Below are positions 4,373 to 63,808 of a stretch of 64,000 bases of DNA, piece after piece. The stretch comes from Scleroderma bovista (taxonomy: Eukaryota > Basidiomycota > Agaricomycetes > Boletales > Sclerodermataceae): NCBI GenBank assembly GCA_037178675.1, contig JAYMGJ010000380.1, positions 141,169-205,168 of the forward strand, given 5' to 3'. The position numbers and the translations under genes are program-made. Each line of letters begins with the position of its first letter. Positions within the stretch are counted from its first letter, which is position 1. The notes under the pieces are model-generated. The model saw only the letters and a program-made list of their open reading frames with translations. It was not told where the DNA came from and ran no database searches.

Positions 4373-4731
4373 TGTTAAAAGTAATGTGACCAGACAGGGA
4401 ATTGAACCCTAGACCTCCTAGGTCTATATCAGGTGCTCTAACCACTGAGCTATATGGTCAAGGGTACATGGCTTACTTGGGGGGGTTTAACCCAAGTACT
4501 AGCTTGAGAACTAGTGAGGTGAGGTGCTGAGACTACACCATTCAACAGCCTCCCCTAATCCAGCACATCACTATTACAAAGTGCAGGCGTGTGAATCCAT
4601 TGCCTAATCGGGTCCATTGCCTTGATGGTAGGTCTTACTAACCCCATGGGGGATGCCTTCCTTTAAAGGGCTTACTAGGACACTAGGACTTATCAGGAAC
4701 ATCACCACTTTAGCACACAGGGCTCATAACC
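4373..4731 (-). mobile_element. TRIM-2: TRIM internal region plus one LTR, fused into Cop-1 at the primer binding site
   Basis: On the minus strand the copia LTR ends at 4732 and is followed directly by the TRIM primer binding site and internal region (4731-4548), then a 175-bp TRIM LTR (4547-4373), then directly by the copia primer binding site (4372). No TSD separates the parts and both junctions fall exactly where an LTR meets the shared motif GGTTATGAGCCCTG. This is not an ordinary insertion; it looks like recombination or template switching between TRIM and copia at their common site. Confidence 0.9.
4388..4459 (-). ncRNA. tRNA-like domain in TRIM-2 LTR
   Basis: Equivalent to the block described at 18644-18716, with one visible base change in the anticodon-loop region (TATCAGG versus TACCAGG on the plus strand). 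Confidence 0.68.
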
Positions 4732-4969
4732 TGTTCAAATAATCCACAAAAGAGCACTCTAGTGCCCAGTGTCAGAGACTAAATTGAGAGGATAGCTACA
4801 GGATACAGACCTAGTGCCCAGTGTCAGAGACTGAAGAGAAGAGACTGTGGGCACGAAAATTTCAACTATACAAACAAAGCAAACACAGAAAAACAATGTA
4901 ACACAAAAGCCACAAATCACCTGATCAACCTGGAAAGGAAACAGCTGAAGTAATTGTTAAAAGTAATGT

Positions 4970-5041
4970 GACCAGACAGGGAATTGAACCCTAGACCTCC
5001 TAGGTCTATACCAGGTGCTCTAACCACTGAGCTATATGGTC
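4970..5041 (-). ncRNA. tRNA-like domain in TRIM-3 3' LTR
   Basis: Identical in layout to 18644-18716: acceptor, D, anticodon and T arms can all pair, and A and B boxes are intact. Confidence 0.75.
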
Positions 5042-5330
5042 AAGGGTACATGGCTTACTTGGGGGGGTTTAACCCAAGTACTAGCTTGAGAACTAGTGAG
5101 GTGAGGTGCTGAGATTACACCACTCAACAGCCTCCCCTAATCCAGCACATCACTATTACAAAGTGCAGGCGTGGGAATCCATTGCCTAATCGGGTCCATT
5201 GCCTTGATGGTAGGGCTTACTAACCCCATGGGGGTTGCCTTCCTTTTTAAAGGGCTTACTAGGACACTGGGACTTATCAGGAACATCACCACTTTAGCAC
5301 ACAGGGCTCATAACCTGTTAAAAGTAATGT

Positions 5331-5402
5331 GACCAGACAGGGAATTGAACCCTAGACCTCCTAGGTCTATACCAGGTGCTCTAACCACTGAGCTATATGG
5401 TC
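5331..5402 (-). ncRNA. tRNA-like domain in TRIM-3 5' LTR
   Basis: Second tRNA-like copy of TRIM-3, 361 bp from the first, with intact A and B boxes. Confidence 0.75.
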
Positions 5403-6057
5403 AAGGGTACATGGCTTACTTGGGGGGGTTTAACCCAAGTACTAGCTTGAGAACTAGTGAGGTGAGGTGCTGAGATTACACCACTCAACAGTAATCACAG
5501 GAAATGCGCAACAACAACACAACAAGAGTGCACAAACACTCAATATCAACAGAGGTAGACCTGTGATCTGCAGCCACTAGCCGTTTGATCTTTGCATAGC
5601 TGTGCCACTGCCCTGACCCGGCGAGCACGACAGGCGAACAAAGTCTTACGCTTAGTTTAGTGGAACACCTGTGGGGATCTAGTCCCAAAGTAGCCTTACT
5701 TCTATGTCACCCCTTACATTAGTCACCATACCATACCAGTTTCCCCACCACCTCGTCGGAGCACAACAGGAGCGCTTGGCGATCATCTACAGCCCTCACC
5801 CTGACGCTGTCCCCGAACCACAGGAAAGGGAATCAGCAATTGAAGAAGAGTTTCAGTTCACCAACGCAGTTGCCGCCTACAGTTGCCTTGTTAGCGACTT
5901 TGAATTGCAAGTCCTCCTTGGCTTCCACCGTTCCCTTCCTGTCCCACCCCTGCCAGACCTCCCACTCGTGCGCCGCTGCACATTCCGTTCCTCTCGTTTC
6001 CATCCGGTCCAAAAGCGACCAACCTCTTATTCCCGTCTCTGCCCCTACTAGTTTGTC

Positions 6058-7060
6058 ATGGCGGACCTCAACCAGCTCCTTGCCCAGCTCATCCAGGGGC
6101 AAGTTAACCTCCAGGTGCATATCACGGCCCTTGCGGCTGCACAGCCTCAGCCTGCACCGCTGCCACGCAGGAAGGTGGTTGCGGATCCCAGGAGTTATGA
6201 TGGCTCCCTGCAGAAGTTTCACGAGTGGTGGTCCAAGATCAAGATCTGGCTTCAGATCTCAATGGATGGGGCAACCGATGCCCAGGTCACCGCCACTGTA
6301 CTCTCTCGGCTCACTGGCCTGAAGGCTGGTCGGTGGGCTCAGGTCCGTTTGGACAGCTGCATGGCGGCAGCCCAGGCCCTCGCCAATGCCCCGCCTGTAC
6401 CAGCAGGCCAACCTGCACCCCCACCAGCTTGGCCCGCTTGGGATGACTTCTTGGAGGAGATAGAAAGGTTCTTTCTCCCCGGAAACAATGCTGAGTGGGC
6501 ACGTGCCCAGCTTCTCCACCTTAGGCAGGGCCCAAGGCAGAGGATCAATGACTTCTTAGTGCAGTTCGAGGCGCTCAAGAACCAAGGTGGGTGTGTAGAC
6601 AAGTATGCTCATGACCTGCTCGAACCCGCGCTCCAGAGGAAACTCGTGGAGCAAATTTATATACAAGGCATGCATCGGGACACATATGTCCACCTTGCAA
6701 ATTCAGCTCGCACGATGGGAAGAGCCCAGGAACTCCTTCTCATCAACGTCCAGAGCCAAGGGTCGGCCCGATACTACCAGGGCCAAAACTATTCGTCTTC
6801 AGCTGCATCTGGGAGTGGTACCCCCATGGATATAGGTGCCGCTGAGACAAACCAGCAAAGGGTTACGTAAAGGGCCCCAATGCTACAATTGCCAATTATT
6901 TGGCCACATTGCACGTGAGTGCACAAAGCCGCGCCGCCCTCGTCGTGGGCAACCACAAGCATGGGCAATGCAAGCCCAGCCGGAGGATGACCGGCTAAAT
7001 GCAGTAAGAGGAATGACGTTTGCAGAGATGCAGGCGTTTTTCAAGGATTTAAAAGATTAG
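6058..7060 (+). pseudogene. GyC-1 gag
   Basis: Capsid/nucleocapsid protein of the retrotransposon. The ATG at 6058 starts MADLNQLLAQL. The capsid-like middle includes WDDFLEEIERFF and QGPRQRINDFL, both shared with GyC-2 and GyC-3. A zinc knuckle CX2CX4HX4C (CYNCQLFGHIARE plus C) lies near 6880-6920. One extra base near 6866 (GGGTTACG where GyC-2 has GGGGTA) shifts the frame just before the zinc knuckle. Ends FFKDLKD then TAG at 7058-7060. RNA-packaging role is inferred from the family. Confidence 0.9.
7048..7054 (+). other. putative -1 frameshift site TTTAAAA (GyC-1)
   Basis: T TTA AAA in the gag frame, two codons before the gag stop. Slipping back one base puts ribosomes into the pol frame. 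The heptamer and GATTAG are the same in GyC-2 (43990) and GyC-3 (62006-62000). Confidence 0.6.
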
Positions 7061-10000
7061 TGAGTGAGGACACATCGGGCATCCTCGCTCTCGAATCTTC
7101 TTTGGACTTAGCTGTACGTATACTGGACTATAGACTTTCTCACGCTACTACTCCTGCTGTGCAGGAAATATTTAAATACTGCATTGCTTTGCTACATACA
7201 AAAATAGCGAAAACCCATAAGAAAGTGTCTACAGTAGTTTCCCCTGTCTCGGTTTCTCCTTCCCACTTCTCTGTTTTGTCAGTTGATAGTATGGACTGTG
7301 ACTCGGACTGTTCTGTACCTTCTAAGGGGGTCCCTGCAAAGGGCTCGGTGCCAGAAGTAAAATCGAGCGTGCTTAATTCCTGATTGAATAAAAATATTAT
7401 TTCTCCTTCTTTGGCATCTAAGGAACCGGAAAGTCCTGCCAGCAACTTGGAAGTTCCTATGGACTTACAAAGGTCCTTCACAATAGAACGTGAAGTGACG
7501 GTACCGGTCTGCATCCGCGGACCACTTAATACTATTAAAGTAGACGCTCTGCTAGACAGTGGCACTACTGGTTGCTTTGTTGACAAGAGCTGGGCTCTTG
7601 ATCGACGGCTTCAGTTATCTAAGCTGGTAAAGCCCATCCCTGTGCTTAATGTAGATGGCACTAGGAATCAGGAGGACGATATCATGCATTATGTATTGTT
7701 GACAGTCAGTATTGGGAAACACGCTGAAAAGCTGTGGTGTGCCATCACATGCCTTGGAAAAGTGCTGCTTATCCTGGGCCACACCTGGCTGCAGAAGCAT
7801 AATCCCGATATAGATTGGGTCACCGGCAAAGTTAATTTAACTAGGTGCCCTCCAGAGTGCAAGTCACTTCTAGAGACACGCTTTGCTAAAATATTACGAG
7901 AGAACGAATCTCAGGAAACTTGGGTGCAAGCTTTGAAAGCTCATGAGTCGAAGGTCACTATCGATGAGTCGACCCTAGAAGAAGCTCAGAAGCAGGTACC
8001 TAAAGAGTACTGGGAGTGCCTAGACATATTTAGTAAAAAGTCATCAGAGCGCATGCTGCTAAGGAAACCTTGGGATCATGGAATTGATCTAAAAGAAGAC
8101 TTCCCGCCAAAAAAAGGAAGACTTATCCTGCTCTCTGTTGATGAGCAAAAAGAAGTTGAATCGTTCCTTGATGACCAACTCGCTAAAGGGTACATTTGGC
8201 CTTCTATTAGTCAACAGACATCCTCCGGTCTTCTTTATCCCAAAAAAGGACGGCAAGAAGCGCATGGTACAGGATTACCGATATGTAAACAACTGGACAA
8301 TTAAGAATAACTATCCACTGCCGCTTATCTCTCAGCTTGTTGACAAGCTTAAGGGTTGCAAACTCTTTACGAAAATGGATCTTCGGTTACAACAATGTGA
8401 GGATTCACGAAGGCGATGAGTGGAAAGCTGCATTTGTAACGCATAAAGGGGCCTTTGAGCCGTTAGTTATGTATTTCGGTCTCTGTAATTCACCTGCGAC
8501 ATTCCAGAAGATGATGAATGAGATATTCCACGATATGTCGGATGTCTGCGTGGTGTACATTGATGACCTTATGATATTTACGGATACGGATGATCAGGAA
8601 AAGCATGATAGAATCGTGCTAGAAGTTTTGAAATGTTTACGTGATAATGATCTTTATGTTAAACCCGAGAAGTGTCACTTCAGAGTCACTGAAGTTGACT
8701 TCCTCGGTATGATCGTTTCACGGGATGGTATCAAAATGGACCCTGAAAAAGTTAATGCTATTTTGAAATGGCCAGAGCCGACGAATGTGAAGCAGGTTCG
8801 CGCATTCTTAGGTCTCGGCAATTTCTATAGACGCTTTATTAAAGATTATGCAATCATGGCTAGGCCCATGACGGACCTTACGTGTAAGGATACGGTATTT
8901 ACCTTCGGAGAGAAGGAACGTGCTGCATTTGAGGCTTTGAAAGCTGCCTTTACTCATGCTCCGGTACTCCAGTACCCTGATCAGGATCGCGAATTCCGTC
9001 TGGAAACAGATGCGTCTGAGTTCGCCGTCGGGGGAGTGATATCCGTGAAGTGTGAAGACAGCGAATTCAGACCTGTCGCATACATGTCACATTCCATGAC
9101 ACCTCCCGAACGAAATTATCCTATTCACGATAAAGAAATGCTTGCCATCATAAAAGCAACTGAGGCCTGGCGCCATTATCTCAAAGCCACTCCTTACGCT
9201 TTTGAGATATATACGGACCACCATAATTTAACGTACTTTACCAAGTCACAGAACCTGTCTAAGCGCCAAGCACGCTGGCAAATGTGAATGACACGGTTTA
9301 ACTACTCGTTAATTTATAAAAAGGGAACTCGGATGCATGTTGCAGATCCGCTTAGCAGGCGATCGGACCATTACGTATCTAGTTCAGAAGACAACAAGGA
9401 CCAGGTCCTGTTGAACCCGGTATCTATTAAACTGGTCGATGTCACTGATCAGTCTTACGAAGAGTGACAGTCGCTCATTATGAACTTTCATGACACTCCT
9501 GTTGCTGGGCATAAAGGAGTAAAAGCTATGTATAATGCGCTCAGGAAGCACTATTCTTGGAAAGGGATGAAAGAACAGATTCAAACCTACGTGAAGCACT
9601 GTCAAAAGTGCCAACAGTCTAAGGTGTTGAATCAAAAGACTTCTGGAAGTCTTGTTCCTCTCCCTACCCCTAGTTGCCCGTGGCTTGATGTCACTATGGA
9701 CTTTACCGAGATGCCGGAATCCCTCAGTTACAATTATATATTAGTTGTAGTTGATCGGTTCTCCAAGGAGGTCGTGTTTGTGCCTTGTACAAAGGAGGAA
9801 ACCGCCTTGTCAACCGCTGAGTTATTTAGAGACCATGTCTGGTGTCAACATGGACTCCTGTCTTCCATTGTGTCTGACCGTGGATCAGTCTTTGCGAGCA
9901 ACTTCCTGGGGGAGTTGTATAGACTTTTAGGCATAAAAAGGAAAATGTCTACGGCATTTCACCCTCAAACCGATGGTCAAACGGAGCGGTTGAACCGTGA

Positions 10001-10757
10001 AATTAATCAGTATCTCCGAACCTACGTACACGATCGACAGAGTGAATGGGCTAAGTGGATCAAGATTGCCCAGTTCGTTTGGAACAACACGGTCTCAGAA
10101 GTAACTACTGATTCACCATTCGGAATTACCCGGAGTTATTCCCCTCGCATGGGTGTTGAGCCTGTGGATACAGTAGCCCCAGTGGCTAAGGACTTCGCCG
10201 TTATATTTAATAAAGTCGTTGAGTCTTCTGAGAAGGCAAAACATAATATGAAGCTTCAGGCGGATAAGCATAGAAATCCCACTTCGGACTATGTTGTAGG
10301 CCAACATGTTTGGCTTTCTACGGACAACCTTCATATGCTAAATCATGTTTCTAAGAAGCTTACAGAGAAGTGGATTGGCCCCTATGAAGTCACTCATGTA
10401 ACCCCGAATGCGGTCGAGCTTAAGCTCCTGAAAACTCTTTGGATCCACCCGGTTGTGAATGTTTCACGAGTAAAACCTTATTTAGGTCCTCTTCCCAGTC
10501 AGCCTGTGTCCCGGCCCGGTCCAGTACATGTTTCTGAAGAACGCGATGAAGAGTATGAAGTAGACTATATAGTAGCTTCCCATATTTATAAAAGGCAGCT
10601 CCAGTACCTGGTACACTGGAAAGGATACGAAGAACACAAGAGAACGTGGGAACCCTCATCTAATTTGAAGAATTCTCCTCTGGTAGTCGAGCACTTTTAC
10701 CATGAGAATCCCTCTGCCCCTCAAAAGCTTCATATGACCCGAGTGGACTTTGACTGA
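7050..10757 (+). pseudogene. GyC-1 pol (protease, RT, RNase H, integrase, chromodomain)
   Basis: Pol lies in the -1 frame relative to gag. Domains in order: aspartic protease (LLDSGTTG, about 7550); reverse transcriptase ([21 protein letters not shown] near 8556); RNase H (LETDASEFAVGG, about 9000); integrase zinc finger (HDTPVAGHKG..HCQKCQ, about 9490-9620) and DDE core (MDFTEMPE, SDRGSVFASNF, HPQTDGQTERLN); chromodomain near 10550-10700 (YLVHWKGYEEHKRTWEP). Breaks: TGA at 7381-7383, frameshifts near 8219 and 8386, TGA at 9285-9287 and 9465-9467. The last two sit where arginine or cysteine is found in relatives. The chromodomain class is known to target heterochromatin. Confidence 0.93.
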
Positions 10758-11348: not shown

Positions 11349-11626
11349 TGTTGATATTGAGTGTTTGTGCACTCTTGTGGTGTTGTGTGGCGCATTTGCA
11401 GTGATTACTTGAGGTGTTTCCTATCCAGGTTGATCAGGTGATTTGTGGCTTTTGTGTTACACTGTTTTTCCTTGTTTGCTTTGTTTGTGTAGTTGAAATT
11501 TTCGTGCCCAGAGTCCTTTCTCTTCAGTCTCTGACACTGGGCACAAGGTCTGTAATCTGTAGCTCTCCTCATAATTTAGTCTCTGACACTGGGCACAAGA
11601 GTGCTATTTTGTGGATTATTTGAACA
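11349..11626 (+). repeat. Cop-2 5' LTR
   Basis: TGTTGATATTG to TTTGAACA, 278 bp. Includes a repeated motif GTCTCTGACACTGGGCACAA (two copies, about 60 bp apart). Confidence 0.95.
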
Positions 11627-11640
11627 GGTTATGAGCCCTG
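11627..11640 (+). other. Cop-2 primer binding site
   Basis: GGTTATGAGCCCTG, continuing CGCT. The complement AGCGCAGGGCTCATAACC matches the stem and loop of an initiator tRNA-Met anticodon arm, including the CAT anticodon, rather than a tRNA 3' end. Half-tRNA priming of this kind is known for Drosophila copia and yeast Ty5. Confidence 0.82.
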
Positions 11641-11797
11641 CGCTCCAGGAACTTTAGGACTACGCTTTAGACCACCCTCCTGCTGCTGCGCAACTTTTTT
11701 CGCCTACTACATCGATTTCCACTCTTTGCCTCTCTGCCCCAGCCTCAAAACTCGCTCCCCAGCCCTCCTTTGCTGCCCCCATCGCATTCCCATCCCC

Positions 11798-14700
11798 ATG
11801 GCCGACGATTCCACCAGCTCTTCCACTCCTTCCTTCGAAAAACTCGCCTCTTCCAACTACTCCACCTGGAAGGGGGAGATGAAGGCCTTCCTGCGCACCA
11901 AGGGCCTCTGGACCATTGTTAGTGGTGCTGAGAAGCGCCCTGATGACTCCCACTCCGACCTCCAGGCTAAATGGGACCTTAGAGCGGACAAGGCTGCAGG
12001 TCAGCTGTATCTCTCCCTCTCTGCTGAACAGAGGACGCATATAGAGGCTGTCCAAGACCACCCTGCCAAGATCTGGTCGACCCTGGAGTCTATCCACCTC
12101 CAACAGCGTCCAGGAGCTCGTTTCAATGCCTGGGACGACTTTTTCTCGATTAGGAAGAAGGAGGACGAGTCCCTGACCTCTCTCATCGCCAGGATTGAGG
12201 ACTCTATGTCCAAGATCCAGCAGCTCCGCCCCAAGGACGCCTCCACCCCTTATACCATCAAGGACCTCGATAATGAGCTTATTTGTATGGCTATGGTGCG
12301 ATCCCTGGGCGATGACTACTCCCACTTTGCTTCTTCTCTACTTCTCTTCCAGTCTTTGGAGAAAGACAGGCTCAAGGAGGCTTTCCTAGCGGAGGAGTTA
12401 CAGCGCAAGCGTCGCCCTGAGGCTACCACTGGGTCTGAGGCAGTCCTGTTCGCCTCTGGCAGCACCTGCAAGTGTCCCCCTTCTGTGTCCTGCACTTTCT
12501 GCGAGTACTCGAACCACTGTGTCCACAAGTGCCAGAATCTTGTCAAGGCCAAGACCAACTACTTATCCCAGAAGTCCAAGCGCACTAAGAAGGGTGGTAA
12601 CGCCGCAAATCAAGCCTCTGACGCGTCCAGCTCCTCTCAGACCCCTGCAGATGCATCCTCTGGCTCCCAGTCCGCTTCCCAGGCCATGGAGTTCGCTGGA
12701 AATGCAAGTCTTCGTTCCTTTGACCCCTCCTCCCCACTCTATCCACTCCAACTCGATGCTGACGTCCATTGGAATGCAGACACTGGGGCCACTGCTCATA
12801 TGACCCCCCATCGCCACTGGATGCGCAACTATACCTCCAAATGTGTTCCAGTGAAGTTGGCAGACAATAAAGTGGTCTATTCTGCTGGGGTGGGGTCTGT
12901 GGTGTTTGTACCGGTTATTGGAGGAAGGAAGCAGCGTCCCGTCGAGTTTACCAACGTCCTGCATGTCCCTGACCTCAGGAATAATTTACTCTCTGTGCTA
13001 TACTTGTGTCGAAGTAAGGGCTTCCTTGTAAGCATTGATGCGACGCAGATGGCCTTCAGACGTCACCCTGGACCTGTTCTCTTCGTTGCAAACATAGGGA
13101 CAAGCAACTGCGCTTTTCTGGATGGAGAAACCGCCCCTCTGGTCGAATTTGCGTCTGCAGCCACCACTACTCCTCTAGATCTTGACTTGTGGCATAGGAG
13201 ACTAGCTCACCACCACCTGGCCGATGTGAAGACCTTGCTGCATCACAATCTGGTCACTGGGATGGCCATAGACTCGAAGACTGCCCCAGATCCTATCTGT
13301 GAAACCTGCCTGGCTGGTAAGATGCATGCCAATCCCTTCCCTAGCTCTTCATGGCGCGCCTCCAAACCTCTGGAACTCGTCCATAGCGATGTCCACGATG
13401 TAGGCCACCTTTCCATGTCTGGGTATCGATACTGGATCACTTTCATCGACGACTACTCGAGATTTTGCTTTGTTATCCCTCTGAAGGCCAAGTCACAAGC
13501 TTTTGAGGCCTTTAAGACGTTCAAGGCCTTTGCTGAGAACCAGAGCGAGCGAAAGATCAAGATCCTGCGCGATGACAAGGGAGGGGAGTATATGAGCAAC
13601 GCTTTCATCGATTTCACGACCCAATGTGGCATTCTTCGCCAGCATACTGTCAGGAATCGACCCCAGCAGAATGGAGTTGCAGAGCGTGCTAATAGGGTTC
13701 TATCCGAGCGGATTACTGCGATGTTGGACGAGTCTGGCCTTGCCAAAGGTTTCTGGGGCGACTGTCTTGCCTCTTTAGTCCATGTCTGGAACAGGTGTCC
13801 TACTGAGGCCATCAAGAATGCTACTCCCTATGAACTGTGGCATGGGTGCAAGCCTGATGTCTCCCACCTTCGAGTTTGGGGATGTACTGCCTATGTGCAT
13901 GTGCAGAAGGACAAGAGGCGCCCTCTGGAGTCCCACATGGAGAAATGCGTCTTTCTAGGCTATCCTGAGGGTTACAAAGGCTGGAAGTTCTATAATCCCA
14001 CCTCCAAGCGTACTCTCATCTCTGAAAGGGCTGATTTCGACGAAAGGTACTTCCCTATGTCCAAAAGATCGCCCTTACCATCCCAGCCTCCCCCTACTGC
14101 TCCTGCTGTTGTCCCACCTTCGCCCCCAGTTGAATACTACAACCCTGGTGCGACTCTGGACTCTGAGAGCGAATGCAATGAGGTACTGGATCATGGGGGG
14201 GCGCCTATACCTTTACCTGCTAATCCAGAACCTCCTGCTGTTCCAGATGAAGCTCCTGCGCCTCCTGTGCGCACTCCATCCCCAGAACCACGTCCCAGAC
14301 CTCCTAGTCCCGTCGGAATCGGTGCCAGACTGCCTATGCGCAACAGACAGAAACCCAGAGAGTGGTGGAAGCTCTCCCCTGCGCAGCTTGATGAACCTGA
14401 TGAGATGGAGGACAGTGATGACGAGTTGGCTATGTCTGCATCTCTCCCTGATGAGCCACTCACATTTGCAGAGGCTCTGACTCGCCCTGATGCGGAAAAG
14501 TGGAGACAAGCTGCTTTGGAGGAGCTGGCTGCTCACCAGTCAAATGGTACTTGGACCCTTGTTCCTAGGCCTGCTGGGAGTAAGGTGATCGGTTCAAAGT
14601 GGGTATTTAAGGTGAAGCGCAACGCAGATGGCTCTGTAGACCGCTACAAGGCTCGATTGGTGGCCAAGGGCTACAACCAGCGTCCTGGATTCGATTACCT

Positions 14701-15758
14701 TGAAGTCTTCGCTCCTACTGTTCGCCTTTCGTCCATCCGGGTTATTCTCGCGCTTGCTGCACTCCAGGACCTCCACCTGCACTCCCTTGACGTCTCTCAT
14801 GCCTACCTCAATGGGGAAATGGACTGTGAGGTGTATATGGCGCAACCTGAAGGCTTTGTGGAGGGAGATCCAAAAGCAAAGGTGTGTCTGCTTCAGAAGG
14901 CTATCTATGGCAGCAAACAGGGCGGAAACCGCTGGAACAAGAAGATGCGCTCTGTGCTTGAGTCTCTTAACTTCAGGCAGACCTACTCCGATGCCAGCAT
15001 CTACATCTACTCCAAGGATGGTGTAACTATCATTCTCCCTGTCTTTGTCGATGATATGACTCTAGCCTCGAAATCTGAACCAGCCATCCAGTCTTTCATC
15101 GCCCAACTCAGCCAGCACTTCAAATCGTCCAGATATCGCCTACACTGTCGGAGTATTGGCCAGATTCAACTCCAATCCTGGCTGGACCCACTGGCTCGCT
15201 GTCAAACACCTCCTGCGCTATATTAAGGGTACCCTTGACTACTCTATCACCTATTCTCCTGATCCCTCGCAACCTGAGACCTTTATCACCTTCTCTGATG
15301 CAGACCATGGTGGATGCAAGGATACTGGCCGCTCTACTGGTGGATATGTGGTCAAGATGGGTACTGGTGCGGTTTCCTGGTCTTCTAAGCTGCAAAACGT
15401 CGTTGCTCTGTCTACTACTGAAGCTGAGTATATGGCAGCTGTCCAAGCAGGCAAGGAAATCAAATGGATGCGCAATCTGATGCATGAGCTTGGTATTCCC
15501 CTTCCTGGCGCCTCCTCTCTGCTCATTGACAACCAATCTGCGATTTCTGTGGCTAAGAACCCAGAACACCATGGCAGGATGAAGCAGCTGGACCTTTGCT
15601 ACTACTGGCTTCGAGATGCGGTCCAGGAACAGGCTATCACACCTTCATTCGTCCCTACCACTCAACAGGCTGCTGATCTGCTCACCAAACCATTGACTAC
15701 ACCCAAGGTGAGGGAGTTTTGTCAGATGCTGGGACTTGGTGGATCTGGGGGGAGTTAG
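11798..15758 (+). pseudogene. Cop-2 gag-pol polyprotein with deletion in reverse transcriptase
   Basis: I take the ATG at 11798 (MADDSTSSS), matching Cop-1; an in-frame extension upstream lacks support. Order: gag; zinc knuckle near 12491; protease DTGA near 12777; integrase HHCC near 13190-13310 and DDE core (HSDVHD, LRDDKGGEY, QQNGVAERANR); reverse transcriptase (KWVFKVKRNADGSV; FVDD near 15046 in place of the usual YVDD); RNase H (TFSDADHGG, STTEAEYM). At about 15126, after QHFK, the sequence jumps to PDIAYTVGVLARF in another frame. Cop-1 retains over 220 bp of what is missing. The frame ending at 15226 is the resulting false end; RNase H continues in the other frame to the stop at 15756-15758. 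Insertion is young, so the deletion was probably present in the copied RNA or arose during reverse transcription. Confidence 0.93.
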
Positions 15759-15780
15759 TGATTTGCAGAAATGCACAATC

Positions 15781-15789
15781 AGGGGGAAG
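15781..15789 (+). other. Cop-2 polypurine tract
   Basis: AGGGGGAAG immediately before the 3' LTR. Confidence 0.8.
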
Positions 15790-16067
15790 TGTTGATATTG
15801 AGTGTTTGTGCACTCTTGTGGTGTTGTGTGGCGCATTTGCAGTGATTACTTGAGGTGTTTCCTTTCCAGGTTGATCAGGTGATTTGTGGCTTTTGTGTTA
15901 CACTGTTTTTCCTTGTTTGCTTTGTTTGTGTAGTTGAAATTTTCGTGCCCAGAGTCCTTTCTCTTCAGTCTCTGACACTGGGCACAAGGTCTGTAATCTG
16001 TAGCTCTCCTCATAATTTAGTCTCTGACACTGGGCACAAGAGTGCTATTTTGTGGATTATTTGAACA
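15790..16067 (+). repeat. Cop-2 3' LTR
   Basis: 278 bp, one base different from the 5' LTR. Confidence 0.95.
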
Positions 16068-17455: not shown

Positions 17456-18643
17456 AAGGTGCCTCTGGAAGGGTTCTGGAAGTGCTCTGGAAGTGCTCTG
17501 GAGGTGCTCTGGATGCAGGCCATTTTTAAACCCTGGGGCTTGTGCTAATTTCACTATCGTAGCATATCAAATATGATGCTGATTTATTTGAGTACCATAC
17601 TCCCATCGTTCGGGAGCTACCAACATGCCCCGAAATTCTGTGCGCAAGAATATCTTGAACCAACTCGACAACACAACCCTTACTATTGTAACTGCAAGGC
17701 TAGAAAATGTGTCGTGGAATGGAGGATAGTAGCCCGAGTTCAGCCTCCAGTTGGGGCGAGTCCAGTCTCTCCCAGACCCCCCTCTTCACTCTGTCGTCAC
17801 CGATCTCACTGATCTCATCAGATCTTGAGTCCAGCTCCTCTGATGACTCTACGGTTGAACGAGATGCTCGATATGCCCGGCTCCTAAATGGAATCAGTGC
17901 GCTTAGAGACGAAATCGAGTATGCCCGCGTACTTGAAAAACCAGATGTGCCGATGATGCGTGCACCCCAGCTATGCCTCCTTGAACACTTTGCGGATCAT
18001 AGACCCCACTTATTTATCAAGCGCCTTCGTGTGTGGCCATCGATTTTTGATCGCATCCTCAATCAAATCAGTGACCACCCTATTTTTCACAGCCGCTCTG
18101 AAAACCGCCAGTTGCCTGTTGCCATTCAATTGGCGATTTTCCTCTTCCGTGCAGGGCATTATGGGAATGCGGTGTCGCCTGAGGATGTCGCCCAATGGGC
18201 TGGGGTGAGCGTTGGGTCGGTTGTCAATTGTACCAATCGTGTCATGATTGCTGTTCTGGACGAACACGACCAATTTGTCAGAATTCCATCCGAGGACTCG
18301 GAGGATATGGAGAAAGCCTGGGTCTTTACTGAATCACGCACCTGTCCAGCCTGGAAAAATGGCATTTTTGCCGCTGATGGTTCAAGTATCCCCCTGTTTG
18401 AAAAGCCTCATATGTTTGGAGAATCATATTATGACAGAAAGTCAAGATACTCCCTCAACTGTCAGGTGGGTACTTAAACAAGCATATAAAGTAGTAGGAC
18501 TTACATGTCATATAGCTTGTTATCATGCCACATAATTTACTTGTTGTGGACTATGTGTTGAGTGGTGTAATCTCAGCACCTCACCTCACTAGTTCTCAAG
18601 CTAGTACTTGGGTTAAACCCCCCCAAGTAAGCCATGTACCCTT

Positions 18644-18716
18644 GACCATATAGCTCAGTGGTTAGAGCACCTGGTATAGACCTAGGAGGTCTAGGGTTCA
18701 ATTCCCTGTCTGGTCA
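18644..18716 (+). ncRNA. tRNA-like Pol III domain in TRIM-4 5' LTR
   Basis: 72 nt plus a discriminator-like A. Acceptor arms GACCATA and TCTGGTC (six of seven pair); D arm GCTC-AGTGGTTA-GAGC; anticodon arm CCTGG-TATAGAC-CTAGG; 5-nt variable loop; T arm TAGGG-TTCAATT-CCCTG. A box TAGCTCAGTGG at 18651-18661 and B box GTTCAATTC at 18696-18704 fit the Pol III consensus. The anticodon loop lacks U33, so it is unlikely to decode. An overlapping hairpin TAGACC/GGTCTA is an alternative fold. Confidence 0.8.
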
Positions 18717-19004
18717 CATTACTTTTAACAGGTTATGAGCCCTGTGTGCTAAAGTGGTGATGTTCCTGATAAGTCCCAGTGTCCTAGTAAGCCCTTTAAA
18801 AAGGAAGGCAACCCCCATGGGGTTAGTAAGCCCTACCATCAAGGCAATGGACCCGATTAGGCAATGGATTCCCACGCCTGCACTTTGTAATAGTGATGTG
18901 CTGGATTAGGGGAGGCTGTTGAGTGGTGTAATCTCAGCACCTCACCTCACTAGTTCTCAAGCTAGTACTTGGGTTAAACCCCCCCAAGTAAGCCATGTAC
19001 CCTT

Positions 19005-19077
19005 GACCATATAGCTCAGTGGTTAGAGCACCTGGTATAGACCTAGGAGGTCTAGGGTTCAATTCCCTGTCTGGTCA
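19005..19077 (+). ncRNA. tRNA-like Pol III domain in TRIM-4 3' LTR
   Basis: Exact counterpart of 18644-18716, 361 bp downstream in the second LTR. Confidence 0.8.
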
Positions 19078-19693
19078 CATTACTTTTAACACTATGGGCT
19101 CGGACACCCAGGAAGCATTCATGATGCATGGGCATTTCGGGGCACCTGTATCGCATCAGATCCTGCAGAATTTATCCCACAGGGTCACTGGATGTGGGCA
19201 GACAGCACATATCCAACAGAGACTTGGTGCGCTGTCCCCTTCAAAAAGCCTAGGGGAGGGGGATTATCTCGAGATCAAAATGTGTATAACAAACATCTTT
19301 CCAAGGTACATACCTTACTATCCCACAGGGATCGCATATTGATCGGATAAACAGATTCGCGTGCGTGTTGAACACGCATTTGCTGCCTTGAAAGGTCGAT
19401 TCCAAAGTCTTTGTGAAGTGCGCATGAAGATTCGGACAGAAAAGGATACAAAGGTGGCAATATTCTGGGTCCTTTGCTGCATCATTTTGCACAATATGAT
19501 TGTATGCTTTGAGGAAGAAATGGGGGAGAATGTCATGCCCTCGACTGACTGGGCAATTAATGAAGGAAGTGGCTTGCACGATGAAGACGTGGTGGAGGTT
19601 GCAGAGGCTGTAGGAACTCCTGGTCAGCAATTTCGCATGGGGCTGCTAGATAAACTGTTTCAGCATCTCGGACGGGAGCGTACCCATACATAA

Positions 19694-58214: not shown

Positions 58215-61200
58215 GGTGCAGGATTCCAGACTGCAAAAGGTAGGTTCGCATATGGTAAGATTCTCGGGGATCCAAGTAAATAACAAGTCAAAGTCTGACT
58301 GCACCATACGAAGCTTTTGAGGGGCAAAACAATTTTCCCTATAAAAATGCTCAACTACCAGAGGAGAATTCTTCAAGTTTGACGAGGGTTCCCATGTTCT
58401 TTCATGTTCTTCGTACCCTTTCCAATGTACCAAGTACTGGAGCTGTCATCTATAAATACGAGATGCTACAATATAGTCTACTTCGTATTCTTCATCGCGT
58501 TCTTCGGAAACATGTACCGGTCCAGGCCGGGAAACGGGTTGTCCGGGGAGTGGACCTAAATAAGGTTTGACTCGGGAAACATTCACTACCAGGTGAATCC
58601 GAAGAGTTTTCGGGAGCTTAAGCTTGACCGCATTCAAGGTTACTCAAGTGACCTCATAGGGGCCAATCCATTTTTCCGTAAGCTTCTTGGAAGCACGATT
58701 TAACATACAAAGATTGTCTGTTGAAAGCCAGACTTGCTGACTGACAGTATAATCTGGGGTGGGATTTCTATGCTTATCCGCCTGAAGCTTCATGTTGTGT
58801 TTAGCCTTCTCAGAAGATTCAACAACTTTGTTAAATATGGCAGCAAAGTCCTTAGCCACTGGGGCTATTGTCTGCACTGGCTCTACACCCATGCGCGGGG
58901 AATAACTCCAGGTAATTCCAAATGGGGAATCAGTAGTAACCTCTGAGACTGTGTTGTTCCAGACAAACTGGGAAATCTTGATCCACTTAGCCCAATCGCC
59001 TTGTCGATTGCTAACATAGGTTCAAAGGTACTGGTTGATTTCGCAGTACAACCGCTCCGTTTGTCCATCAGTCTGAGGGTGAAACACCATAGACATCTTG
59101 CGCTTTATGCCTAAGAGTCTGTACAACTCCCCCAGGAAGTTGCTTGCAAAGACCGATCCATGATCAGATATTACGGTGCTGGGAAGTCCATGCTGGCACC
59201 AAATGTGATCTCTAAATAATTCAGCAGTCGAGAGGGCGGTCTCTTCCTTAGTGCATGGCACAAAGACTACCTCCTTGGAGAACCAATCAATGACCACTAG
59301 TATATAGTTATAACCGAGGGATTCTGGCATCTCGGTAAAGTCCATTGTGATGTCAAGCCACAGTCCTTCTGGGACAGGGAGAGGAAGGAGACTTCCAGAA
59401 GTCTTCTGGTTTGAAACCTTTGACTGTTGGCACTTTTGGCAGTGCTTCACATAGGTCTGGATTTGCTCCTTCATCCCTTTCCAGGTATAGTGCTTCCTGA
59501 GCGCATTAAACGTAGCTTTGACACCCTTATGTCCAGCGACAGGTGTGTCATGAAAGTCCGTGATTAGTGACTGGCACTCTTTGTAAGTCTGATCCATAAC
59601 ATTGATCAACTTAATAGATACCGGGTTTAACAAGGTTTGATCCTTGTTATCATCGGAGCTCAAGACGTAATAGTCCGATCACCTACTAAGTGGATCTGCA
59701 ACGTGGATCTGGGTTCCTTTCTTATAAATTAATGAGTAGTTAAAGCACATCATTCACATTTGCCAGCGCACTTGGCGCTTGGAGAGGTTCTGCAACTTTG
59801 TGAAGTATGTTAAGTTATGGTGGTCCATGTAAATCTCAAAGGCATAAGGAGTGGCCTTGAGATAATGGTGCCAGGCTTCTGTTGCTTTTATAATGGCCAG
59901 CATTTCTTTATCGTGAATAGGATAGTTGCGTTCCGGCAGAGTCATAGAGTGCGACATGTACGCTACTGGTCTGAATTTGCCGTCCTCGCACTTAATGGAT
60001 ATCACTCCCCCAACGGCGAACTCAGACGCATCGGTTTTGAGGTGGAATTCATGGTCCTGGTCAGGGTACTGAAGTACTGGTGCACGAGTAAAAGCAGCCT
60101 TCAAGGCTTCAAACGCAGCACGTTCCTTATCACCGAAGTGGAACACAACATCTTTACACGTTAAGTCCGTCAATGGCCTAGCCATGATCGCATGGTCTTT
60201 AATAAAACATCGATAGAAGTTGCCGAGACCTAGGAATGCTCGAACCTGTTTGACATTTGTTGGCTCAGGCCACTTTAAAATATTATTAACCTTTTCAGGG
60301 TCCACCTTTATTCCATCACGTGAGACTATCATTCTGAGGAAGTTGACTTCAGTAACGCGGAAGCGACACTTCTCAGGTTTGACGAATAAGTCATTATCAC
60401 ATAGATGTTTTAAGACCTCAAGCACGATCCTGTCATGCTTGTCCTGATCGTCTGTGTTTGTAAATATCATAAGGTCGTCAATATACACCACGCAGACACC
60501 TGACATATCGTGGAAGATTTCGTTCATCATCTTCTGGAATGTCGCGGGTGAATTACATAGACCGAAATACATAACAACGGGCTCAAAAGCCCCTTTGTAC
60601 GTTACAAACACAGCTTTCCACTCATCGCCTTCCTTGATACAGACATTATTATATCCCCACCGAAGATCCATCTTCGTGAAGAGTTTACATCCTTTCAGCT
60701 TGTCGACAAGCTGGCTGATCAAGGGCAGCGGGTAGTTATTTTTAATGGTCCACTCATTTAAATGACGATAGTCTTGAACCATGCACTTTTTGCCGTCTTT
60801 TTTGGGGACAAAGAAGACAGGGGAAGTCTGAGGGGAGATGGATGGGCAAATATATCCTTTCGCAAGCTGATCGTCAACGAAGTCCTCAACTTCCTTCTGT
60901 TCATCCACCGACAGGGGTATCAAATGCCCTTTCTTAGGTGGGAAGTCTTCCCTGAGATCTATGCCATGATCCCACGGCTTCCTAAGCGGCATGCGTTCAG
61001 ATGACTTCTTCAAGAAGACATCTAAATACTCCCAGTATTCTCGGGGTACAAGCTTCTGGGCCTCCTCGAGGGTTGTCTCATTGATAGCAACCTTTGACTC
61101 GTGAGCCTTTAAAGCCTGAATCTAAGTTTCCTGAGATTCGTTCTGATGTAATAATTTAGCGAAGCGTGTTTCCAAGAGAGACTTGCACTCAGGGGGACAC

Positions 61201-61996
61201 CTAGTTAAATTAACTTGTCCGGTTACCCAATCAATATCGGGGTTATGCTTTCTAAGCCAGGTGTGGCCGAGGATAAGGGGAACCTTTCCAAGGCAAGTGA
61301 CTGCACACCAAAGCTTTTCAGTGTGTTTCCCAATACCGACTGTAAGTAATACATAGTGCATGATATCGCCTTCCTGGTTCCTGGTGCCATCTATGTTAAG
61401 CACTGGAACAGGCTTTACCAGCTTAGATAACTGCAAGTGTCTATCAAGAGCCCAGCTCTTGTCAACAAAGCATCCAGTAGCGCCACTGTCTAGCAGAGCG
61501 TCTACTTCTATAACGTTAAGGGGTCCGCGAATGCGGATGGGTACTGTCACTTCATGTTCCAAGGTGAAGGACCTCCGTAAGTCCAAGAAAGAAACTTCTT
61601 CGGTTCCGGCAGGGCTTTCCGGTTCCTCAGATGCCAAAGGAGAAGAAACAGTAGTATTCAATAGGGAATTAAGCACACTTGATTTATCCTCCAGTGCCGA
61701 GCCCTTTGCAGGGACTCCCTTAGAGGGTTCAGTAATAAATACAGGAGAGTCACTACAGTCCATACTATCTACCGACAAGACAGAGTACTTGTTGAAGGAG
61801 ACAGAAACCGGGGAAACTACAGAAGGTAATTTTTTATGGGTTTTCTGTATTTTACGAGAAAGAAGCGAGATGCGGTATTTATAAATATCCTGTGCTTCAG
61901 GAGACTTAGCACAAGAAAGACAATAGTCCAAAACTCTTACTGCAGCGTCCAGCTCAGACTCAAGAGCGAGGGTGCCCGCTGTGTCCTCACTCTCTA
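58212..61996 (-). pseudogene. GyC-3 pol
   Basis: One continuous frame apart from stops. Protease LLDSGATG near 61490; reverse transcriptase FFVPKKDGKKCMVQDYR and YIDD near 60480; RNase H LKTDASEFAVGG; integrase zinc finger and core (MDFTEMPES, SDHGSVFASNF, HPQTDGQTERL); chromodomain (HWKGYEEHERTWEP) near 58400. Stops: TAG 61122-61124 (tryptophan TGG in GyC-1), then TGA at 59754-59756, 59679-59681, 59022-59024, about 58641 and 58446-58448. The TGA codons fall where relatives have arginine or CGN-derived residues, for example QYL-TY, which is QYLRTY in GyC-1. Confidence 0.93.
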
Positions 61997-62980
61997 ATCT
62001 TTTAAATTCTTGAAATAATCCCTCATTTCAGAGAAGGACATGCCGCGAACAGCGTTGACGCGTTCGTTGTCAGGTTGGGGCTGTACAGCCTGGGTTTGTT
62101 GGGGTTGCCCTCGACATGGGCGACGCGGTTGACAACACTCGCAAGCGATGTGTCCGAACCACTGACAGTTGTAGCATTGGAGCCCTTTACTCCGTTGCTG
62201 GTTTTGCTGCTGAGCAGCGCCGATATCCATTGGGGCGCCAGCGCCCGGCATAACTCCATAAGAGGAGGTCCCACTCCCTTGCTGATAATAGTGGGCGCTG
62301 CCCTGCATATTAATCAGGAAGAGCTCCTGAGCTCTTCCGACAGTTCTGACCGAGGTGGCCAGCTCAGCATAAGTGGTGTGGTCCTTCGCCAGGAGGTACA
62401 CCTGCTGGAGGACCTGCCTCTGTACTGCTCTTTCGAGCAAGTCCCTAGTGTAGGCATTGGGACAGCCACTCTCGATCTTGAGCAACTCAAAAGTTGCGAG
62501 GAAGTCGTCCACTCGCTGACGGGGGCCCTGGCGCAACATTAGCAACTGGGACCTAGCCCAGTCGGCGTTGTTGCCAGGCACAAAAAAGGCAGTTATTTCG
62601 GCCTGCAGAGCGTCCCACGTCGGGTACTCGACTCCTGGACTAAGGTAGTAGTCCAACTTTACCTGGGCCCAATGCCCAGCTTTAGGTCCCTCGAACCTGG
62701 AGAGAATGGCCACCATCATTTCACTATTCCTGGTGAGGAGGCCGCTCCTCTGGTTCATCATGACCCACAACTTCATCTTGCTCCACCAAACTCTGAAGGC
62801 CTGGGGGGAGCCATCATAATTCCCAGGTTCAGCGACAATCTTTTTAGGGGCGCGAGGCGGCGCCGTGGGTGCCCCGGGGGCTTCGGGAGCAAGGCCCTGC
62901 TGTGCATCGGCAAGGGCCTGGATACTGTTTTGCAGGTCGATTTGCCCCTGCGCGAGCTGAAGGAAAATTTTGGAGGGCAT
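61994..62980 (-). pseudogene. GyC-3 gag (open reading frame intact)
   Basis: The start is probably the ATG at 62980 (MPSKIFLQLAQ), matching the gag start region of GyC-1; the frame is open further upstream to 63277. Capsid-like region WDALQAEITAFF and QGPRQRVDDFL; zinc knuckle CYNCQWFGHIACEC near 62150. 328 codons from that start, ending YFKNLKD and TAG at 61994-61996. This is the only gag here without a frame break. I class it with the dead element, but the protein itself could still be made. Confidence 0.88.
62000..62006 (-). other. putative -1 frameshift site TTTAAAA (GyC-3)
   Basis: Conserved heptamer upstream of the gag stop; pol lies in the -1 frame. Confidence 0.6.
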
Positions 62981-63808
62981 CCTGGTGGTGACCCTGCTGT
63001 TGATCCATCGTTTAATATGGGTGATAGCGGGAGTAGGGAGCGCCTCGGGGACGTGCGGGGCAGAGGCAGGAAGTGTGAAACGTATGGCGGCATGTGAGCA
63101 GGAGGGCAGGTTCAGCCTCGATGTAGAAGTGGGGATTGTCGAGGAAGAGGTCTGCAAGATCTTCAATGACGAGACTGTACCAGCGGAAGGAGGTGTTGGT
63201 CTGCTCAATCCTTTTGAAGTCTGCTTCTCTGGCAGCTTCTTGAGCGGGCGTGAGAGGAAGGGGGTAACGGGTATCATAGAAGACTGTCAGGCATCCTGCC
63301 TGATCAAAGGAGTACTCATAGGGATGTATCGTGACTAACTGGTAAGGGTAACATAGACATAAGGTTATATCGGGACTAGATCCCCACAGGTGTTCCAATG
63401 AACTAAGCATAAGATTCTGTTCGCCTGTTGCGCTCGCCAGGTCAGGGCAGTGGCACAGCTATGCAGAGTACAAACGGTCACTGGCTGCAGATCACAGGTC
63501 TACCTCTCCACCGACAGAGGAACTACAGGTAACTATGGCTCAATCTCCTTGCGGGTACAAACCGCGCTTGAACGGGAGCCGCCCTATAGACACCAGGCAC
63601 GACCCTGGGCTGGTGTATGTATGTATGGGAACTAAGTAACATTGAGAGCACAGAGCTACTCGGTGTGACACAAAGTCAATGCTGGCACGAAGCCAAGAGG
63701 GTACTGCTTAATGCTACAGTTCACATTTGTTCTCCTTAAGCCTGGAGTCTGGCTATAGTTGCTCTACTAGGCTGAGCAAGCGCGTGGTAGACAAAGTAAG
63801 ATGGGTAG
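62981..63808 (-). other. GyC-3 leader
   Basis: Matches the leaders of GyC-1 and GyC-2 (for example GATCTGCAGCCA near 63490). No gene seen apart from the upstream extension of the gag frame. Confidence 0.7.

Follow-up and report, generated by a model that had tools for sequence, protein, structure and literature searches.

The stretch of DNA analysed here, referred to as the window, covers 64,000 bp of Scleroderma bovista (contig JAYMGJ010000380.1, positions 141,169 to 205,168 of the forward strand). At 18556-19091 it contains a 536-bp miniature LTR retrotransposon (TRIM) that is flanked by target site duplications (TSDs) and carries no genes. No difference was found between its LTRs (18556-18730 and 18917-19091) over 175 bp, and its longest ATG-initiated ORF encodes 49 aa, indicating that the element has no coding capacity, as expected of a TRIM. 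The original prediction of a primer binding site (PBS), a purine tract and no ORF was confirmed on all three points. The features of the element are as follows.

18551-18555, + strand: TSD CTATG, left copy (TSD comparison)
18556-18730, + strand: 5' LTR, 175 bp, TGTTGA...TTTTAACA
18644-18716, + strand: tRNA-like unit of the 5' LTR (Rfam RF00005, 55.9 bits)
18651-18661, + strand: presumed box A, TAGCTCAGTGG
18695-18705, + strand: presumed box B, GGTTCAATTCC
18723-18726, + strand: TTTT, candidate weak Pol III terminator, directly 3' of the tRNA-like unit
18731-18750, + strand: PBS, pairing with nt 20-39 of the host tRNA-iMet (18 Watson-Crick and 2 G-U pairs)
18731-18916, + strand: non-coding internal region (tINT), 186 bp
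18903-18916, + strand: purine-rich tract (GGATTAGGGGAGGC) preceding the 3' LTR
18917-19091, + strand: 3' LTR, same sequence as the 5' LTR
19005-19077, + strand: tRNA-like unit of the 3' LTR (ARAGORN, Rfam)
19084-19087, + strand: TTTT of the 3' LTR; besides this run and 18723-18726, the element has no T4
19092-19096, + strand: TSD CTATG, right copy (TSD comparison)

We take the motifs at 18651-18661 and 18695-18705 to be box A and box B, in agreement with the box motif as quoted in Kojima 2024 (PMC10886601). The insertion interrupts an apparent DDE_Tnp_4 transposase gene (window 17704-18477 and 19092 onwards), in which the exon around and after the TRIM matches Pfam PF13359 with an E value of 7.5e-10 and the upstream ORF gives a weak match (E 0.16).

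Copies in the window and in the genome

Two further copies were found in the window, both on the minus strand.

4955-5490, - strand: second copy, 536 bp, 100% identical to 18556-19091; TSD GTAAT (+ strand); located in a Copia LTR
671-1244, - strand: third copy, indel-rich, 574 bp; TSD GTTGT (+ strand); located in a Copia coding region

All three TSDs given in the original prediction (CTATG, GTAAT and GTTGT) were recovered, the last two as read on the + strand, whereas the predicted length of 536 bp applied to 18556-19091 and 4955-5490 but not to 671-1244. The target of 671-1244 is present as an empty site in other Copia copies. The LTRs of this copy differ at 25 positions and 28 gap columns; short insertions and other indels are scattered over it except in the last ~100 nt, which include the tRNA block and match perfectly. 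Either an unusual mutation process or an artefact of assembly may account for this pattern. The original prediction did not list a fourth TRIM unit, which lies at 4373-4731 within a Copia hybrid.

The 51.8-Mb draft genome (850 contigs) contained 55 LTR stretches of the TRIM family in the loci that were fetched. At least eight copies have two LTRs, with an exact 5-bp TSD in seven of the eight, and at least 27 are solo LTRs, with an exact TSD in 18 of the 27; these copy numbers are lower bounds, 40 of 58 and 40 of 67 candidates having been scored. The solo class includes two truncated LTRs (L013 and L031). Beyond these, one copy with a truncated 3' LTR (L010) and several hybrids were detected; L010 and two loci in which a TRIM LTR is joined to a diverged Copia (L036 and L048) were assigned to neither class, and smaller LTR pieces at L031, L035 and L042 were excluded from the copy count. 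An absence of further TSD-flanked copies would have counted against the original prediction, but the genome contains many of them. Both LTRs are identical in several copies and, judged by this identity, the TRIM has recently been active. Two loci have unusual structures: L045 (1492-2385; C717), one of the eight two-LTR elements, is a tandem three-LTR TRIM array inside one TSD, GACCA, and at L080 (C102) an internal region is accompanied by a 3' LTR that is cut short.

The tRNA-like block and a second LTR family

ARAGORN detected six tRNA-like units in the window, every one of them inside the LTRs of the TRIM family to which 18556-19091 belongs (family 1). With the Rfam tRNA model (gathering score 29), five units scored 55.9 bits (E 2.4e-9) and the sixth scored 51.3 bits (E 4.3e-8); the covariance-model check that had been advised for 18644-18716 thus gave 55.9 bits, above the gathering score. 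Only tRNA was returned by Rfam at gathering scores within the window, and no 5S rRNA was found in the LTR. A tRNA block of 72 nt had been predicted in each LTR; the block itself was recovered, its length is 73 nt (18644-18716), and only one LTR of 671-1244 was called. The predicted full cloverleaf held as a covariance-model fit but not as a minimum-energy fold, since the block folded alone forms another hairpin in the middle, and equally good folds arise in 33 of 200 shuffles. The cloverleaf is, in these predictions, a fit to a model that energy folding does not favour.

Conservation was assessed in the LTR matches that were long enough to count (50 of 55). Each of the two boxes has one variable position in a set of 46 copies from which the L009/L010 subfamily and the indel-rich copy of the window are omitted. 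Adding these copies (50 in total) raises the number to 8 of the 11 positions of box A and 2 positions of box B. Neutral decay of the boxes in other copies, named in the original prediction as evidence against it, was therefore not seen in 46 of the 50 measured copies, in which the boxes are nearly invariant, but this does not extend to the four left out. Within family 1, variable positions make up 21 of 73 in the tRNA block and 36 of 88 in U3 (P = 0.14), indicating that the block is only weakly better conserved; a raw substitution count gives P = 1.4e-4, but counts inherited changes many times.

A search with the A-box/B-box pattern gave 52 places, which were sorted by eye into family 1 (45) and a second family, family 2 (7). 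Family 2 occupies 12 LTR places in the genome and has LTRs of 203 or 238-242 bp. Its tRNA block is 84.5% identical to that of family 1 over 71 nt, whereas the remaining LTR barely aligns: the U3 similarity is slightly above that of shuffles (5 of 500 reach the score) and that of the tail is unremarkable (34 of 500). Eight family-2 loci were checked, both LTR ends were recognised in seven, and five of these seven have exact TSDs. A chance insertion of the block into one ancestral LTR, which the original prediction had named as a further ground for rejecting it, does not fit this recurrence of a related block in a second LTR family. Derivation of the block from a tRNA gene that the host now has was also considered and rejected: among the host tRNA genes sampled, which were the best-scoring candidates of a search that scored 63 of 1605, the best match was tRNA-Ile, with 54 of 76 columns.

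A T4 run directly follows the block in both families, with T5 in one family-2 copy. Among 17 host tRNA calls, taken from outside both TRIM families and outside the apparently mitochondrial contig C387, 16 have T5 or longer within 40 nt. Because host tRNAs mostly have T5 or more, the T4 after the block may be a leaky Pol III stop, as would be needed for read-through from the 5' LTR. The idea that the element avoids internal Pol III terminators was rejected: the LTR plus internal region has one T4 run where 1.3 are expected, which is no more than chance.

Copia, the primer site and insertions with unlike LTRs

A Copia element is located 2.5 kb from the TRIM.

11349-16067, + strand: Copia element with 278-bp LTRs (1 difference), TSD CTTCA, and gag, BBD, integrase and RT in Copia order

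Its frame is shifted in the 3' part, and neither ARAGORN nor Rfam called a tRNA in it. Its first internal bases are the primer site of the TRIM. Host initiator tRNA-Met genes were found and used as the basis of the pairing, and the Copia PBS forms 17 consecutive Watson-Crick pairs with nt 23-39 of the host tRNA-iMet. As the TRIM PBS fits nt 20-39 of the same tRNA, one Copia particle could prime both RNAs with the same half-tRNA. In Drosophila copia, too, nt 39 of tRNA-iMet is the end of the primer. Drosophila copia and Ty5 are cited in Kojima 2024 (PMC10886601) as elements primed at the anticodon loop; the S. bovista elements are alike in this respect and differ in that a non-coding TRIM would also use such priming in trans. 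The TRIM and Copia have LTR tips (TGTTGA...AACA) and 5-bp TSDs in common, and the 16-nt string formed by the LTR end and the PBS (one mismatch at most) occurs 452 times in the genome, against one occurrence of a reversed-pattern control. No packaging leader common to both was detectable past the PBS in the first 300 nt of the Copia internal region (326 of 500 shuffles reach the score).

The PBS of family 2 is complementary to the 3' end of the host tRNA-iMet (14 pairs), so the helper of family 2 is probably an element other than the family-1 Copia. A genome-wide search for a Copia partner with the corresponding LTR-end and PBS string (two mismatches at most) gave one occurrence, in family 2 itself, and three matches of the reversed control.

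Several other structures were observed. L014 (6428-7004; C33) consists of a Copia LTR, a 115-bp leader and a second Copia LTR, and is possibly a Copia-derived TRIM without a tRNA block. At L034 (1649-1721; C498:146248-146320), a tRNA-like block is fused to a Copia LTR end near the primer site and looks rearranged. The window also has Gypsy-like elements at 6052-10757 and 59022-63286, both with RT and RNase H (8289-9284 and 59754-61121); the former has an integrase and a chromodomain as well (9468-10754), which places it in the chromovirus type.

Sequence patterns spanning both ends of tINT were used to take a census of its junctions, and 17 left ends and 16 right ends were obtained. The left ends carry a TRIM LTR in 9 of 17 cases and a Copia LTR in 8 of 17, whereas all 16 right ends carry a TRIM LTR (Fisher P = 0.0027). 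The eight cases with Copia on the left are L012, L018, L027, L028, L042, L046, L047 and a hybrid in the window; the Copia LTR of L042 is from a different Copia family. L012, L027 and L046 consist plainly of a Copia LTR, the TRIM internal region and a TRIM LTR between exact 5-bp TSDs.

L012, C27:21899-22536: TSD GGATA; empty site at 2 places
L027, C373:48713-49351: TSD GCTGA
L046, C748:9560-10198: TSD GAGGC; empty site at 5 places (90-93% identity)
Window hybrid, 4373-4954, - strand: Copia LTR (4732-4954), TRIM internal region (4548-4731) and TRIM LTR (4373-4547)

When the flanks of L012 and L046 were joined with one TSD copy, they aligned to further copies of the target repeat with no gap at the point of joining; no empty site for L027 was found among the fetched loci. 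The empirical chance that two 5-mers match is 0.0012, which makes three or more exact pairs among eight a chance of about 1e-7. A usable TSD is absent from the other five cases (the window hybrid, L018, L028, L042 and L047): the right end of L047 is truncated, L042 carries an internal deletion, and the structures of L028 and of the window hybrid are complex. For the window hybrid, which continues at the PBS into Copia internal sequence (from 4372 downwards), no TSD was found. All five may have arisen in another way, for example as post-integration recombinants. The converse junction, in which a TRIM LTR precedes a Copia internal region and a Copia LTR, was detected at L028 and L048, both without a TSD, and the window hybrid is a third such place.

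The eight Copia LTRs are 76-96% identical to one another, so the mixed cases look like separate events, and there was no sign among them that any mixed insertion had multiplied as such. LTR-LTR recombination cannot reduce a mixed copy to a solo LTR, and an excess of mixed copies among the long ones would therefore be expected. The original prediction that a Copia machinery copies the TRIM is supported by the mixed-LTR insertions, of which three of eight have TSDs and two have empty sites, and which point to Copia as the mobiliser.

Proposed replication, alternatives and relation to Helenus

We interpret 18556-19091 as a Helenus-type TRIM with a tRNA-like Pol III unit, copied by Copia machinery, and assign this reading a probability of about 0.8. 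Transcription by Pol III from within the LTR is likely in view of the A and B boxes, the T4 after the block in both families and the precedent of Cassandra. Transcription would start directly before the tRNA-like unit of the 5' LTR, read through the weak T4 of that LTR and stop at or after the T4 of the 3' LTR, giving an RNA with the tRNA-like unit (the R region) at both ends. As the insertions suggest, Copia reverse transcriptase and integrase would finish the TRIM cDNA and insert it with 5-bp TSDs.

In LTR elements, minus-strand transfer needs a matching R, and plus-strand transfer needs a matching PBS. Because the PBS is common to Copia and the TRIM whereas the LTR body (R) is not, minus-strand transfer would stay within the TRIM. 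Copia plus-strand strong-stop DNA could anneal to the TRIM minus strand at plus-strand transfer, and this cross-annealing would produce a left Copia LTR and a right TRIM LTR, as observed. Both nucleic acids would have to be present in a single particle and be processed by a single RT and a single integrase, and the pattern would need only a common primer site between co-packaged Copia and TRIM cDNAs. We give even odds to a broader proposal, in which LTRs are exchanged frequently and in a single direction at plus-strand transfer between a TRIM launched by Pol III and its Copia helper, driven by Pol II. The parasite RNA would thus need only the common tRNA primer site and LTR tips, not similarity of LTR or leader, and the resulting insertions, with one LTR of the Pol II and one of the Pol III kind, could not collapse to solo LTRs.

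The tRNA-like block could also be explained without a Pol III promoter. If Pol II transcribed the TRIM as in an ordinary LTR element, the block would be an old SINE- or tRNA-derived passenger, which would agree with its weak conservation within the family by variable positions, the variation of box A outside the 46-copy set and an RNA fold no better than that of shuffles. This is unlikely, however, given the single variable position per box in the 46 copies and the retention of the block and of a T run at the same spot in family 2, where U3 and tail are largely unrelated; A and B boxes are likewise conserved across Helenus families according to Kojima 2024 (PMC10886601). A role of the fold as RNA, in packaging or priming, was suggested in the original prediction and is compatible with the covariance-model fit. 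We consider it quite improbable and found no support for it, as the PBS pairs with the host tRNA-iMet, the minimum-energy fold is not a cloverleaf and is no better than shuffles, and the Copia element of the window has no tRNA call. That the LTRs spread working tRNA genes serving translation is very improbable indeed. ARAGORN does read the family-1 block as tRNA-Leu(tag), but by eye the anticodon is preceded in its loop by A instead of U and one pair of the acceptor stem is mismatched, and the family-2 block is read as tRNA-Tyr(ata), which is not known as a normal type. Isotype disagreement is also described for many Helenus families in Kojima 2024 (PMC10886601).

The mixed-LTR copies themselves could instead have formed after integration, by gene conversion or ectopic recombination, or be products of misassembly, and would then be uninformative on co-packaging. 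The five of eight cases without a usable TSD, the complexity of L028 and the window hybrid, and the draft state of a genome in 850 contigs are all in keeping with such an origin. We nevertheless regard it as improbable for the set as a whole: exact 5-bp TSDs flank three cases, two of which have empty sites; the two flanks would differ after a crossover between two loci; the stretch common to both at the junction is only ~18 nt; and the switch to Copia lies at the left end in 8 of 8 cases and at the right in 0 of 16.

The TRIM copied by Copia that we favour belongs to a known class. In the original prediction no fungal TRIM with a tRNA in its LTR was known, but such elements have been published as Helenus (Kojima 2024, PMC10886601), in fungi including Agaricomycetes. 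In that paper, Helenus (TRIMp3) is listed for Pucciniales and Agaricales among the fungi of Table 1, and Amylostereum is named in the text. The S. bovista TRIM is a new Helenus family from the order Boletales, which is absent from that table; it is assigned by features rather than by a match to published family sequences, namely a tRNA-like sequence with box A and box B in each LTR, 5-bp TSDs, and a PBS and a purine tract (PPT) at the ends of the internal region. The host is close to Pisolithus, a genus of Boletales (PMC5689174): mitochondrial NAD4 from its assembly shares 95% identity with Pisolithus proteins and 99% with unnamed proteins. Helenus is also alike in having no genes, a PBS to the iMet anticodon loop, several families per genome and Copia as the inferred mobiliser in fungi. 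In most fungal Helenus families, according to the same paper, the PBS corresponds to a tRNA anticodon loop, chiefly that of iMet; the two S. bovista families use two parts of the same host tRNA-iMet, and both primer uses are reported among fungal Helenus (PMC10886601).

The case made there for Copia as the mobiliser of fungal Helenus is based on primer sites, the length of the TSDs and a single match between internal regions, and we found no mention of mixed-LTR insertions in the parts consulted. The S. bovista insertions go beyond this in giving unusually direct sequence evidence for the helper of a TRIM. Cassandra is likewise a TRIM with a Pol III gene promoter in its LTR, but that promoter is a 5S rRNA rather than a tRNA and its hosts are plants; Kojima 2024 (PMC10886601) states that its mobilising element is not indicated, whereas a helper is indicated for the S. 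bovista TRIM. A SINE was rejected as a description of the element, because a SINE would lack LTRs and be moved by a LINE, whereas the TRIM has LTRs, a PBS, a PPT and 5-bp TSDs. Sabot and Schulman 2007 (PMC1950507) describe template-switching complexes in LTR elements of Triticeae that are also chimeras of co-packaged elements recognised by their flanking TSDs; they have three LTRs, of which the outer ones are closely similar, and a switch at R is the explanation given, whereas the insertions described here have two unlike LTRs, for which a switch at the PBS would account. A search confined to the open-access literature found no report of insertions with two LTRs of which one is from a TRIM and the other from its helper, so their absence from print is unproven.

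Mixed-LTR insertions would provide a readout, from the genome alone, of which helper shared a particle with which parasite. They bear on what moves TRIMs with Pol III promoters and on what a non-coding RNA must share with its helper. The junction search can be applied to any genome with Helenus, Cassandra or Ajax, and would yield concrete pairs of helper and TRIM.
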